A stretch of DNA of 38,800 nt from Sunxiuqinia sp. (lineage in GTDB: Bacteria; Bacteroidota; Bacteroidia; Bacteroidales; Prolixibacteraceae), in NCBI GenBank assembly GCA_024635605.1, contig JAGXIR010000195.1, forward strand, positions 1 to 38,800. The letters run 5' to 3'. This document shows positions 9,507-14,117 of this stretch, piece after piece. The position numbers were made by a program, and so were the translations under genes. How positions within the stretch are numbered: the stretch's first letter is position 1; every line of letters starts with the position of its first letter. Under the pieces are notes generated by a model that ran no database searches, was not told the DNA's origin, and saw only the letters and a list, made by a program, of their open reading frames with translations.

Positions 9507-9845
9507 TTACAGATTAACCACCTTTTCGGCTGCCTTTTGAAGCAGCAGGATGTCCATCATGGTGCCGACAATGCCCACTTCCATTTGGTCAATCAGCCCA
9601 AAATGGTTCAAGCAGGTTTTACAGGCCATCAGTTTCACCCCTCTTTGCTCTAGGCTCTGCAGGGCGCTTACAGCAGGCGAACCAGAGCAAATTAACTTCA
9701 CCCCGCCGTTGTAAAAAGCAATCACTTGGGGAAGCTCCAGATCTTCGCTCAGCAACTTGAGGTAATTTTGAATGAGTAATAGCCCGAGCTCATCGTCTCC
9801 GGCTCCCATGCCGTTGTTGGTAATCTGGATGAGGGTTTGTTTCAT
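9507..9845 (-). CDS. DsrE-family protein, YedF C-terminal-domain type
   Basis: I place the start at ATG 9845 (112 residues, MKQTLIQITNNGMG), because a consensus -7 box lies just upstream at 9873-9880, which excludes the longer frame back to 9986. The sequence follows the DsrE-like C-terminal domain of the YedF selenium/sulfur-metabolism family: GAGDDELGLLLIQNYL, LPQVIAFYNGGVKL, a SPAVSALQSLEQRGVKLMAC segment with CKTCLNHFG and its two cysteines, then VGTMMDI. YedF itself usually adds an N-terminal TusA domain, absent here. It probably handles sulfur or selenium in persulfide form, but the exact role is unknown. It sits downstream of the betaine operon but has its own promoter. Confidence 0.85.
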   Translation of the reverse strand: MKQTLIQITNNGMGAGDDELGLLLIQNYLKLLSEDLELPQVIAFYNGGVKLICSGSPAVSALQSLEQRGVKLMACKTCLNHFGLIDQMEVGIVGTMMDILLLQKAAEKVVNL

Positions 9846-9989: not shown

Positions 9990-10874
9990 TTACATGATCT
10001 TTTTTCGCTCGGGTTTCAGGTCTTTTACCCACTGGTTGACGATGTATTCGTTTTTGCGAATCCATTCGCGCACGCCATCTTCGGGGTCGGCTTCGCTGTT
10101 CATCAGGTAGATGAGGCTGTTGATTTGCTGTTCCGAAAACTGCATGCGCTCGAAAAAGCGGACTACCGTTGGTAAGCGACCAGACAGGCTTTTGCTACCC
10201 ACCGCGTAAATATTTTCCTGGGCGCCAAAAACCTGTAGCGGATCATCCAGGAATCTGAGTTCGTAGCGGGCAAACAACCAGTGCGGTTCCCAGCCGGTAA
10301 TGACAATTTCTTCGCGCCGTTTAAACGATTCTGAAAAGGCTTTAGTCATGTCCTGCTCCGACAGGCTCAGGAGTTGTACGCTGCCAAGACCGTATTGATC
10401 GATCGCATGCCGTGTTTGGTACATCACGCCGGCTTCGGTTTCAATGCCCACCAAGTCAACATCACTGCCTTTTAAATCCTCAATGGACTGGTACTGGCTG
10501 TATGCTGGTACCACCAGCCCGGTTCGGGCATGCGGATAAATAATGCCCAGTTGTTCAATCGCGTTGGCGTGGTTCTCCAGGTAATGGCCGTGCGTTTCCG
10601 GAAGCCAAGCGTCAGCAAATACATCAGCCTGCCCGCTGGCCACTTCAGCATAGGCATTTTCCACATCGGTCAGTTTCATTTGTACTTCAAACTCCATCTG
10701 CTCTTCCAGCACAATCTTGGCCAGATTGGTAATGGCAATGGCTTCCGACCAATCGGTGTAAACCAGGTTTACCGTTCGTTCCTCATCAGATTGGTTGCTG
10801 CTTGGCGTTGTGCAGGCTGCCATCAGGCAAAGCGCCAGCATTGCTGCCAGGGTTGTTTTGATCTGTCTGTTCAT
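9990..10874 (-). CDS. Glycine betaine/choline-binding lipoprotein, OpuAC/ProX type, without ABC partners
   Basis: I use ATG 10874; a GTG at 10898 overlapping the upstream stop is the alternative. The product is 294 residues, with a lipoprotein signal (LALCLMAAC, Cys21) and the OpuAC binding fold. The aromatic residues that form the quaternary-ammonium cage are present: Trp42 in YTDW, Trp90 in DAWLPETHG, and Trp195/Trp199 in TGWEPHW, followed by FARYELRFLDDP. It should bind glycine betaine, proline betaine or choline in the periplasm. It is the third gene of an operon after the BCCT transporter and the universal stress protein. No ABC permease or ATPase gene is near, so how it passes on its ligand is open. 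Confidence 0.9.
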   Translation of the reverse strand: MNRQIKTTLAAMLALCLMAACTTPSSNQSDEERTVNLVYTDWSEAIAITNLAKIVLEEQMEFEVQMKLTDVENAYAEVASGQADVFADAWLPETHGHYLENHANAIEQLGIIYPHARTGLVVPAYSQYQSIEDLKGSDVDLVGIETEAGVMYQTRHAIDQYGLGSVQLLSLSEQDMTKAFSESFKRREEIVITGWEPHWLFARYELRFLDDPLQVFGAQENIYAVGSKSLSGRLPTVVRFFERMQFSEQQINSLIYLMNSEADPEDGVREWIRKNEYIVNQWVKDLKPERKKIM

Positions 10875-10897
10875 AATTTCTGATTTTAAGCCATTCA

Positions 10898-11818
10898 CTA
10901 ATCAAAGAGCGCTTCCAAAAATCCCAGGGTTTGTTTGCGGTCTTTCACAATCATCACCGGGATGTTTTTTTCAACCTCCGCCAAATCTTCCGCGGTTTGG
11001 TCAAGAATGACATTGGCCAGATCCGATTTCACTTTCGAGCCAATCATAATCAGGTCAGCGTGGTTGACCAGCCCGTGGTGATAAAGCAGCTGGGCTTCAT
11101 CGTAATGTTTGTCGTACAGATAAGTGCAGGGGATTTCCTGCGGATCGAGCTTCAGCTTTTTCATGAACTTGGCGTATTCTTTTTCACCATGTTTGCTCAT
11201 TCTCCTTTGAAGGCGTTGTTCGTCTTCCAGTGAATATTGCGGAAAATGGCTGATCGGAATTTTATAGGCGTTGATGGCGAAAATCGTGGCTCCGGTTAGC
11301 TGACTAAGCCCAACAGCGGTTTTCATCGCTATTTCCGACATTTTTGAGAAATCGGTGCGAACCAGGATCTTCTCGATTTTCGGGATGACGGTTTCACTCA
11401 GCAACAAGATCGAAGAGGGGGTTAGCGGCATGGTTCGCCGCGCCAGCGATCCTCTTCCCATGTAGCCGACCTTTTTGCCAAACAGGGTCAAATTGATCTT
11501 TTGATCGCGGGTGAACTGCAGCAACCGGTCGGACTTAACGCCTTCCAGCACGACTGCTTCAGTCTCAATATTTTCCTGATGGCGAAAAGACGTGGATATT
11601 TTCTCTTCCAGTTCTTCCTGAATAATTTTTGTGATCGGCTTTTTCATATCGGGAAACTCACTTAAGACTTCCCGCGGCAGGTCGTAGCTCTGTAACAAGT
11701 GAAGGAAATAGATTTTCCTGGCTTTGATTCGTTCCACCAGGTAGTTTGCATAGTTGATCAGGAAGTCATCCATCTCGGTCAGGTCCATGCAAACCAATAT
11801 GTTGTCCAATTTTTCCAT
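10898..11818 (-). CDS. Tandem universal stress protein (two UspA domains)
   Basis: The 306-residue cytoplasmic protein has two UspA domains. The first begins KLDNILVCMDL and ends with the nucleotide-loop-like GRGSLARRTMPLTPSSILLLSE. The second begins KIEKILVRTDFSKMSEIAM and ends IMIGSKVKSDLANVILDQTAEDL...IPVMIVKD. The G-x2-G-x9-G(S/T) ATP loop is only partly recognisable in each half, so nucleotide binding is uncertain. Its stop codon is adjacent to the betaine-binding protein gene, and it follows the BCCT gene by 59 bases without a terminator, so it belongs to the betaine operon. It may link transport to stress state. Confidence 0.88.
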   Translation of the reverse strand: MEKLDNILVCMDLTEMDDFLINYANYLVERIKARKIYFLHLLQSYDLPREVLSEFPDMKKPITKIIQEELEEKISTSFRHQENIETEAVVLEGVKSDRLLQFTRDQKINLTLFGKKVGYMGRGSLARRTMPLTPSSILLLSETVIPKIEKILVRTDFSKMSEIAMKTAVGLSQLTGATIFAINAYKIPISHFPQYSLEDEQRLQRRMSKHGEKEYAKFMKKLKLDPQEIPCTYLYDKHYDEAQLLYHHGLVNHADLIMIGSKVKSDLANVILDQTAEDLAEVEKNIPVMIVKDRKQTLGFLEALFD

Positions 11819-11877
11819 AATGCAATAATTTTGTCGTTTTCAATGAAATTCCTCGCGACGATCGCTACGCTGAAGGT

Positions 11878-13497
11878 TTATTTCGATTCTCTTTTTTTCA
11901 GAATGTCCACAATGATCTTCTGATAATCTTTGTGTTCGCGATCCCGCACCCGCTCCATCATTTCTTCGTATTCACCCCGCAGGCCTTTCATCAGGCTCCA
12001 GGCAATAATGATCAGAATAATGGCAAAAGGCAGTCCGGTTGAAATGGCTGCTGTTTGCAGGGCTTGTAATCCACCACCCAGCAAGAGTACCGCTGCTATA
12101 GCTCCTTCGGTGAGCGCCCAGAAAATTCGTTGGGCAACAGGCGCTTCCAGCTTGCCACCCGCTGTCAGACTGTCGACTACGAGGGAGCCGGAGTCGGAAC
12201 TGGTGACAAAAAAGCTGGTCACCAAGATGACACCAACCATGGACGTAACCTGCGAGATAGGAAACTGCTCAAGCAGAACAAAGAGAGAAGTGGCGACGTT
12301 TTCTTTCACGGCACCGCTAATGTCGGCCAGAGCATTCAGCTCAAGAAACAAGGCGCTGCCTCCAAAGGCCGAGAGCCAAAGGAAAGTTAGCAGCGTAGGA
12401 ACAATGAGTACGCCCAGTACAAATTCTTTCAGCGTGCGACCCCGCGATATGCGTGCGATGAACATGCCAACAAAAGGTGACCAGCTAACCCACCAAGCCC
12501 AGTAGAAGACCGTCCAGCCATTTTGCCAGTCCGATTGTTGGTAGGTTTCGGTCCAGAAACTCAATTCGAAGAAGTTTTGCATGTAGCTTCCCAGATTTTG
12601 TACAAACGAGTTGATGATAAATAAGGTGGGGCCAACAATGATAATAAAAAGTAAAAAAAGACCGGCTAGAACGATGTTAATTTCACTCAGTCGTTTTACT
12701 CCGGAACTCAGACCAGCCACGACCGAGCCAGTGGCAGCCAAGGTGATCAGTATAATCAGAATCACCTGGCTGTTTACGGTATCAGGCAGGTTAAACAAGT
12801 GAGCCAGTCCGGCACTCACCTGCTGAACGCCCATTCCCAGCGAAGTTGCCAAGCCAAAAAGTGTAGCGACCACCGCCAGCACGTTGATCATTTTTCCGAT
12901 CGGGCCATTCACTTTTCTTCCCAGCAAAGGGTAAAACACCGAGCTGATGGTCAGCGGTAAACCTCTGTTGAAAGTGAAAAAAGCCAGTGCCATTCCAACC
13001 AGCGCGTAGATGCCCCAAGCATGTAAGCCCCAGTGCAGAAAGGTGAGTTCCATCGCAATTCTAGCGGCTTCAACTGTTTGGCCTTCCGAAGTTGGCGAAT
13101 TAAAAAAGTGGTTTATTGGTTCCCCCACACTCCAGAATAAAATACCAATACCCATTCCGGCACTGAACAGCATGGCAAACCATGCTCCTTTCGAGAACTC
13201 AGGTTTGGCATTTCGGCCACCGAGCTTGATGGAGCCAAACTTGCTAAACGCTATGTACAAGACAAAAATAAGGAAGAAGTTGACGGCCAACACAAAAAAC
13301 CATCCGCCACTGCTGGAAATTGCGCCTTGAATTTTGCCAAAAATCTCCTCCATGGGATCACCAACCACCAAGGTGACTGTGATAAATAAGATGATTATAA
13401 TGGCTGAAGGCCAAAAAACGGGGGCGTCAACATCAAAATATTTTTTCTCTGTTTTTAATTCAGGATTGATTTCATCCTTCGGTTCTTGTTCTACCAT
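11878..13497 (-). CDS. BCCT-family betaine/choline/carnitine transporter
   Basis: The 539-residue membrane protein has about twelve helices. It carries the sodium/substrate motif GMGIGILFWSVGEP (around residues 114-127) and the aromatic substrate box YWAWWVSWSPFVGMFIARISRGRT (around residues 332-354), both diagnostic for BCCT carriers such as BetP, BetT and CaiT. The G-M-G-I-G form is usual for sodium-coupled betaine carriers. It should take up glycine betaine or a related solute across the inner membrane during osmotic upshift. First gene of the operon BCCT-USP-OpuAC. mscL lies 195 bases upstream behind a terminator. Exact substrate and coupling ion are not proven. Confidence 0.92.
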   Translation of the reverse strand: MVEQEPKDEINPELKTEKKYFDVDAPVFWPSAIIIILFITVTLVVGDPMEEIFGKIQGAISSSGGWFFVLAVNFFLIFVLYIAFSKFGSIKLGGRNAKPEFSKGAWFAMLFSAGMGIGILFWSVGEPINHFFNSPTSEGQTVEAARIAMELTFLHWGLHAWGIYALVGMALAFFTFNRGLPLTISSVFYPLLGRKVNGPIGKMINVLAVVATLFGLATSLGMGVQQVSAGLAHLFNLPDTVNSQVILIILITLAATGSVVAGLSSGVKRLSEINIVLAGLFLLFIIIVGPTLFIINSFVQNLGSYMQNFFELSFWTETYQQSDWQNGWTVFYWAWWVSWSPFVGMFIARISRGRTLKEFVLGVLIVPTLLTFLWLSAFGGSALFLELNALADISGAVKENVATSLFVLLEQFPISQVTSMVGVILVTSFFVTSSDSGSLVVDSLTAGGKLEAPVAQRIFWALTEGAIAAVLLLGGGLQALQTAAISTGLPFAIILIIIAWSLMKGLRGEYEEMMERVRDREHKDYQKIIVDILKKRESK

Positions 13498-13691: not shown

Positions 13692-14117
13692 TTATTCTTT
13701 TTTCAGCAAATCCCTGATTTCAGCTAATAACTCCTGATCCTTGGTTGGGATCAGCGGAGCGGGTTCGGCAGGTTTTTCGACCTCCTTCTTTTTCATGTTC
13801 ACCATGGCCCGGATCATCATAAAGACTGCAAAGGCAATGATAATAAAGTCGATGGTTGTTTGAATAAAATTACCGTACAGGATGGTTGCCCCTTTAGTAA
13901 CCACCTCGCCGGCGGCATTCACCACATCATCGCGCAGTACATACTGGAGTTCCTTGAAGTCTACTCCACCAATCAGCATGCCAATCGGCGGCATCAAGAT
14001 ATCATTCACAAACGAGGCCACAATTTTACCAAAGGCACCGCCAATGATAATGCCAATGGCCATGTCAACCACATTGCCGCGCATGGCAAAGGCTTTAAAT
14101 TCTTTCATTATGCTCAT
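13692..14117 (-). CDS. mscL: Large-conductance mechanosensitive channel MscL
   Basis: The 141-residue protein has the canonical MscL sequence: an N-terminal amphipathic helix ([18 protein letters not shown]), the pore-lining TM1 [26 protein letters not shown] (written here in part as [15 protein letters not shown]), a periplasmic loop, TM2 [18 protein letters not shown] and a cytoplasmic helix with [12 protein letters not shown] and EIRDLLKK. It opens under membrane tension on hypo-osmotic shock and releases solutes. It is next to the betaine uptake operon on the same strand, but its own terminator separates the transcripts. The N-terminal M-S-I-M allows a start at the first or fourth codon. 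Confidence 0.97.

Follow-up and report, generated by a model that had tools for sequence, protein, structure and literature searches.

Whether a carrier of the BCCT (betaine/choline/carnitine transporter) family can be served by a substrate-binding protein is the question raised by a three-gene cluster in the genome of a Sunxiuqinia relative. The cluster lies in a stretch of 38,800 nucleotides (assembly GCA_024635605.1, contig JAGXIR010000195.1, positions 1 to 38,800), referred to here as the window, and on the minus strand encodes first a BCCT carrier, then a tandem universal stress protein (USP), then an OpuAC-type lipoprotein. As far as these searches go, the arrangement is new as a unit built of parts from known families, and it is real and conserved. 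Taken together, the three parts suggest a binding-protein-assisted BCCT carrier. Our leading interpretation, held tentatively, is a three-part osmolyte uptake unit in which a symporter would be accompanied by a cytosolic USP regulator and by a periplasmic lipoprotein that assists the carrier. The features concerned are listed below.

11878..13497, minus strand: BCCT-family carrier, 539 aa; PF02028 match
10898..11818, minus strand: tandem USP, 306 aa, probably cytoplasmic; Pfam Usp match
9990..10874, minus strand: OpuAC-type lipoprotein, putatively betaine-binding, 294 aa from the ATG, with an in-frame GTG at 10898; PF04069 match (1.6e-51)
10812..10814, minus strand: lipobox cysteine, lipoprotein residue 21, invariant in a 12-row alignment of relatives
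10278..10751, minus strand: stretch with the cage tryptophans W42, W90, W195 and W199, from the alignment of lipoprotein rows
9993..10019, minus strand: clade-specific C-terminal tail of the lipoprotein, residues 286-294 (LKPERKKIM), of low model confidence and unaligned in ABC-type proteins

The original prediction of a cluster made up of these three genes is borne out by the Pfam matches and coordinates. It had also given gaps of 59 and zero bases. The first, between the BCCT and USP genes, stands; the second holds only in part, as it needs the GTG start, with which the lipoprotein gene would overlap the USP stop by one base. From the ATG at 10874, to which the relatives except S. dokdonensis align, the gap is 23 bases.

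Conservation of the gene order

The distribution of the trio among relatives indicates that the three genes belong together. Among 140 searched genomes of the same family, 41 gave a match to the lipoprotein, 19 of them with a close relative (at least 51% identity), the other matches reaching at most 35%. A lack of conservation of the BCCT-USP-OpuAC order had been named as a result that would refute the prediction; the order is present, on one strand, in 15 of the 18 other family genomes. At the level of the order (393 genomes) 13 matched at 1e-70; nine besides that of the window hold the lipoprotein clade, and eight of these nine have the trio. The wider searches scored no more than six candidates in each genome and considered matches to 1e-70 (to 1e-60 in one later search). 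A set of 22 named loci, many from the same genomes as the family and order counts, includes 21 in the clade and 19 with the trio, three of the latter cut by contig ends; the named trio genomes include Sunxiuqinia, Draconibacterium, Maribellus, Tangfeifania, Plebeiobacterium and a Marinilabiliaceae isolate. Across trios the two gaps range from -53 to 67 and from -11 to 57 bases, with one of 219, for open reading frames (ORFs) taken from their first start.

In all 19 family genomes with the lipoprotein clade the carrier is present with at least 73% identity, a level reached in 20 of the 140 genomes, and a 57-residue fragment occurs in one more (G123). The unit is cut by contig ends in G131 and G121. 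G069 has lost the USP together with the first part of the lipoprotein, and in G068, which is counted among the 15, the BCCT gene is broken into two frames; these two loci (L054 and L045, respectively) are decaying copies of the unit.

When nine genes flanking the trio in the window were used as queries, most recurred in S. dokdonensis. In the other loci the downstream YedF-like gene was the only one to recur, and this within the genus, save for a single weak match in L054. Chance adjacency of the trio is ruled out, since its order is kept across genera and families and the genes flanking it in the window are not.

The OpuAC-type lipoprotein

The likeness of the lipoprotein to the binding protein of the OpuA ATP-binding cassette (ABC) importer (OpuAA-OpuAB-OpuAC) lies in its fold and its aromatic cage. 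Its model (pLDDT 83.8) superposes on lactococcal OpuAC with glycine betaine (3l6h) with Z 31.9 at 1.7 A over 252 residues. Counting from the ATG, all 24 operon rows have W42, W90 and W195, and 23 of the 24 have W199; the window protein has all four, as had been read from its sequence at the outset. Here, in contrast to OpuA, neither permease nor ATPase is co-encoded in the unit, and the lipoprotein belongs to a separate clade with an extra C-terminal tail.

A single branch with support 100/100 parts the operon and orphan lipoproteins from ABC-linked OpuAC proteins in a tree that includes 24 operon lipoproteins out of 33 distinct ones (those of G131, G068, G061, G070, G071, G041, G069, L076 and L078 were omitted). 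Residues fixed in the operon set and rare in ABC-type rows include R186, R187, E242, R243, N252, Y256, N280 and Q281, together with L286, R290 and K292 in the tail; R290 and K292 are found in every one of the 24 operon rows but in none of the 35 ABC-type rows, which represent 26 distinct genes, nine having entered twice through overlapping loci. From this comparison L077 was dropped for its long branch, as were L105/L083 (one gene) and L190, beside which no ABC gene was seen. Clade-specific residues are expected of any old clade, and these indicate separation and not a partner. Several of them sit in the C-terminal helices and tail, and the tail is modelled at low confidence.

The tail is kept in all three Balneola-like genomes that carry the lipoprotein (G200, G421 and G436), which hold BCCT-USP, with a K-to-T change in G421, and it is missing in G884, a genome without a detected BCCT. 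This pattern, seen in three genomes that are related to each other and in a single counter-case, fits a link between tail and carrier.

The BCCT carrier

The window carrier scores above the family cut-offs (PF02028, 647 bits, 2.1e-194; TIGR00842, 531 bits) and below that of the NCBI "glycine betaine uptake BCCT" equivalog (607.4 against 650 bits); therefore its substrate is not assigned by that model. It resembles BetP (about 1e-106) and the trimethylamine (TMA) transporter TmaT in sequence, in the GxGxG motif (GMGIG, residues 114-118) and in the aromatic box (W156, W161, Y164, W335, W336 and W339, matched to TmaT by alignment). TmaT (8zw8) is its closest solved relative (1.4e-178, 53% identity over 522 residues), and the named TMA-box residues of TmaT are all kept. 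TmaT is reported to be unable to bind glycine betaine, and Phe markers have been proposed for choline and dimethylsulfoniopropionate (DMSP) carriers (PMC11708041); the window carrier has Y164 and W339 in place of such markers. On these features betaine and trimethylamine could each be the substrate. In our leading interpretation the carrier would be a Na+-coupled symporter of a quaternary-ammonium osmolyte, most probably glycine betaine.

The tandem universal stress protein

The Pfam Usp match (8.9e-15) covers the second half of the window USP only. In the AlphaFold2 model (pLDDT 83) the first half has the USP fold too, which gives two USP alpha/beta domains, and the model matches UspE over its whole length (Z 23.8). 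A profile match to TeaD was obtained at 6.8e-7. The C-terminal DRKQTLGFLEALF is kept in most Bacteroidales rows of the alignment. The G-2x-G-9x-G(S/T) loop, the motif of ATP-binding-type USPs, is absent from both halves of the window protein in the alignment read by eye.

The start of the USP, also read by eye, contains no signal-peptide-like segment. With the USP probably inside and the lipoprotein exported, a signal between them would therefore have to pass through the membrane, perhaps by way of the carrier, and the suggestion that the lipoprotein senses betaine for the stress protein is unlikely as it was worded.

The USP model also fits the C-terminal domains of the cation-chloride cotransporters (KCC/NKCC/NCC), with Z 12-16 over about 235-250 residues; all fold comparisons given here come from a re-examination of Foldseek matches. 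The likeness, a tandem USP-like C-terminal domain, is one of fold only. In those volume-regulating carriers the domain is fused to the carrier, whereas here it is a separate gene.

OpuA systems in the same genomes

The original prediction had reported no ABC partner nearby. For the permease this is upheld: PF00528 is absent from the window contig, and the three matches in the genome lie on two other contigs (C186 and C115). For the ATPase the statement is narrower, none being found among the 26 window proteins run against Pfam, which are not all of its ORFs, and no search aimed at that family being made. The window genome (71% complete, 240 contigs) shows one BCCT and two OpuAC-family genes, the window lipoprotein and one on C186. 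The latter belongs to an ATPase-permease-binding-protein operon of OpuA type, and C115 carries a pair of permeases, one of them typed, beside a PBP_like_2 binding protein. An OpuA system lacking its own binding protein had been named as a check on the prediction; in what is assembled of this genome (71% complete), the OpuA-type system that was found does have one. The lipoprotein was accordingly rejected as the missing binding protein of OpuA in this genome.

A relative of the OpuAB permease was found in 28 of 32 genomes searched, those without being G130, which has no operon, and the operon genomes G096 (97% complete), G118 (88%) and G660 (78%). Missing contigs could explain the lack of OpuAB in G118 and G660 more easily than in G096. 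Where detected in operon genomes, OpuAB lies on another contig or more than 1 Mb from the operon. When the loci of the order and named-genome set were searched with OpuA proteins, L076 was the only one in which a complete OpuA operon, binding protein included, lay near the trio, and weak ATPase matches lay kilobases from the trio in L058, L059, L064 and L113.

Evolutionary history

The USP profile matches 43 of 395 genomes across the phylum at 1e-35. Loci were fetched from the best matches among these 43, the window's own left out, and in 26 of the 29 loci read the BCCT gene lies directly upstream of the USP. The lipoprotein matches nine of the same 395 genomes at 1e-70, five of them ABC-type or outside the clade. 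Because BCCT precedes USP in nearly all loci read while the lipoprotein clade occurs in four genomes, BCCT-USP looks like an older pair and the lipoprotein like a later addition. In a tree of full-length carriers and 16 of 23 further carriers cut at a locus edge, the 24 operon carriers are set off together by a branch whose Shimodaira-Hasegawa-like approximate likelihood ratio test (SH-aLRT) support is only 67.

In the class of G421 (195 genomes) ten genomes match at 1e-60, and G200, G421 and G436 are placed in the lipoprotein clade. The proximity of the lipoprotein to OpuA genes in L103 (G436) and G200:C4 may mark an older osmolyte gene neighbourhood. In G421, OpuA lies on another contig than the lipoprotein. 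In G200 a gene named by eye as an Nramp-like transporter lies about 1.9 kb downstream of the lipoprotein, and in G884 another USP gene precedes the orphan lipoprotein (L117:4557-5378), about 620 bases upstream of it.

Proposed function and alternatives

In the proposed unit the carrier would import a quaternary-ammonium osmolyte with Na+. The tandem USP encoded beside it may adjust carrier activity from inside, as TeaD does for the ectoine carrier TeaABC. The lipoprotein, having left ABC service, would use its fold and cage to capture betaine in the periplasm and, as its genetic linkage suggests, might present betaine to the carrier or otherwise assist it, with the clade-specific tail perhaps as its docking site. 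The more specific version, a binding-protein-dependent BCCT in which a LeuT-fold symporter has recruited an OpuAC-type lipoprotein to deliver its substrate under a detached tandem USP regulator, is possible and rather doubtful.

Carrier and binding protein are genetically linked across lineages, except in the three Balneola-like genomes. A lipoprotein-BCCT link, as first proposed, gains from the conserved order, the intact cage, the lack of an ABC permease nearby, the presence of an OpuA system with its own binding protein and the separate clade; the hand-over itself is hypothetical. Also in favour are the three of 27 operon genomes in which no OpuAB was detected, the regulatory precedent of TeaD, and the precedents of a binding protein that accompanies a secondary carrier (TAXI-GltS) or has no ABC genes around it (GbsU).

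Several observations weigh against assistance of the carrier by the lipoprotein. BCCT carriers are known to function without a partner, and no BCCT-lipoprotein fusion occurs in the loci read. G073 holds BCCT-USP without the lipoprotein, and across the phylum pairs without it are common (lipoprotein clade in 4 of 395 genomes, USP profile in 43). In the three Balneola-like genomes the lipoprotein stands apart from BCCT-USP, a pair that each genome encodes at another place; in G436 it is about 4.9 kb from the end of an OpuA operon that includes a binding protein, and in G200 an OpuAB permease lies about 8 kb away. G884 (93% complete) has the lipoprotein and OpuAB with no BCCT detected, and 24 of the 27 operon genomes also hold OpuAB. 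Finally, the periplasmic loops of the carrier show no general extra conservation in the lipoprotein-linked set. A first comparison of periplasmic with all other columns gave p 0.004, yet membrane segments fell equally; by a second measure, the ratio to the whole protein, loop 4 stood at 0.51 (half-samples 0.45-0.56) and loop 6 at 0.68, with TM3, TM5, TM6 (transmembrane segments) and one cytosolic loop about as low. In these comparisons the topology was set by eye from the general topology of BCCT carriers, and the BCCT-USP set omitted L139 and L151. Loop conservation is not counted as evidence here.

Four other explanations have to be weighed. The lipoprotein may act as a receptor for betaine and gate or tune the carrier, or some other protein of the envelope, with no hand-over of substrate, so that carrier and USP respond to betaine outside the cell. 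An add-on regulator is plausible given that BCCT-USP occurs without the lipoprotein in most lineages seen, and the clade-specific residues of the C-terminal helices and tail possibly form a contact surface. The contact that this explanation needs is hypothetical, and no conserved signalling partner was seen in a scan of the relatives that, beyond the trio, covered homologues of the genes flanking it in the window; we regard this role as unlikely.

That the lipoprotein is a second feeder of the OpuA importer, merely co-regulated with the carrier, would account for the frequency of OpuAB in operon genomes, for G884, for the OpuA genes about 5 and 8 kb from the lipoprotein in G436 and G200, and for a fold and cage that are the same as in OpuAC. 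We consider it improbable: OpuA has its own binding protein in the window genome, G436 and G421, the operon occurs without detected OpuAB in G096, G118 and G660, and the lipoprotein has its separate clade and tail.

A third explanation takes the lipoprotein as a periplasmic scavenger or store of betaine without a fixed partner, the operon only co-expressing osmolyte functions. Its precedent is GbsU of Halobacillus and Virgibacillus, likewise an orphan OpuAC-type lipoprotein with an aromatic cage and no ABC genes nearby (PMC6207618), and the lipoproteins unlinked to BCCT-USP in the Balneola-like genomes and G884 would agree with it. However, GbsU sits in betaine synthesis clusters, whereas here the lipoprotein accompanies a BCCT-USP pair; its linkage to one carrier clade is nearly fixed in Bacteroidales, and the tail is kept where BCCT-USP is in the genome (three of three Balneola-like genomes, one with the K-to-T change) and missing where no BCCT was detected (one of one). 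Such a role seems quite improbable.

Lastly, that the unit serves trimethylamine and not betaine, its carrier being a TmaT-type Na+/TMA symporter as the closest solved relative and the kept TMA-box would allow, is very improbable, given that TMA-box residues also occur in carriers of quaternary-ammonium substrates according to the alignment in the TmaT paper (PMC11708041), that among 54 BCCT sequences (45-58% identical to TmaT) the operon carriers are no closer to it than the others, that 35 genomes contain no flavin-containing monooxygenase (FMO)-type enzyme scoring over its length, and that the lipoprotein has a betaine-type cage. Weak partial FMO matches occur in 12 of those genomes; the best stretch scored 26.8 bits, the longest match spanned 218 of 532 positions, and the highest sum for a frame was 32.4 bits. 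The FMO-type family relevant here is PF00743, which includes Tmm, a monooxygenase that would be a sign of trimethylamine use.

Comparison with known systems

To our knowledge, no binding protein or USP takes part in the transport cycle of BetP. The TmaT cycle likewise involves neither, as described (PMC11708041). In TeaABCD of Halomonas elongata, an osmolyte secondary carrier, a binding protein and a USP are also encoded together, with the same three roles; the USP profile matches TeaD. The membrane part there is the TRAP (tripartite ATP-independent periplasmic) transporter TeaBC, whereas here it is a BCCT carrier, with a tandem USP and an OpuAC-type binding protein. When teaD was deleted, ectoine uptake rose and teaA mRNA was unchanged (PMC2964678). 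The nearest argument of this kind is that for TAXI-GltS of Bordetella pertussis, where a binding protein typical of one class of transporter is linked to a Na+ symporter of unrelated type (PMC12344293); GltS is proposed to be elevator-type and gene fusions exist, whereas the BCCT is LeuT-fold and no fusion occurs in the loci read.

No published description of a BCCT-USP-OpuAC unit was found in the open-licence literature, and a review of multicomponent transporters treats ABC and TRAP systems, the word BCCT being absent from its main text (PMC8276074). If the proposal is true, the principle of a carrier served by a binding protein would reach the LeuT fold, to which BetP belongs. The BCCT-USP pair, itself conserved, is a testable case of a separate USP subunit controlling an osmolyte carrier, similar in fold to the KCC/NKCC C-terminal domains.

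Neighbouring and associated genes

One further gene of the window provides context upstream of the trio.

13692..14117, minus strand: MscL mechanosensitive channel, outside the conserved unit

MscL, an osmotic release channel, lies directly upstream of an uptake operon; among the loci read, this placement recurs in S. dokdonensis only. The YedF-like gene (window 9507-9845), downstream of the operon in Sunxiuqinia relatives, matches the C-terminal part only of its family model.

A protein of about 400 aa that is outer-membrane porin-like by eye (GGAVRFN... YRFYPTF) recurs beside BCCT genes (L139:4392-5600, L140:1726-2982, L147:4764-5915, L148:7704-8921 and L152:7724-8908). No Pfam family matched the five examples tested. 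It is also found beside the OpuA operon of a Balneola-like genome (L103:8037-9236), and it may be a betaine-type outer-membrane channel.

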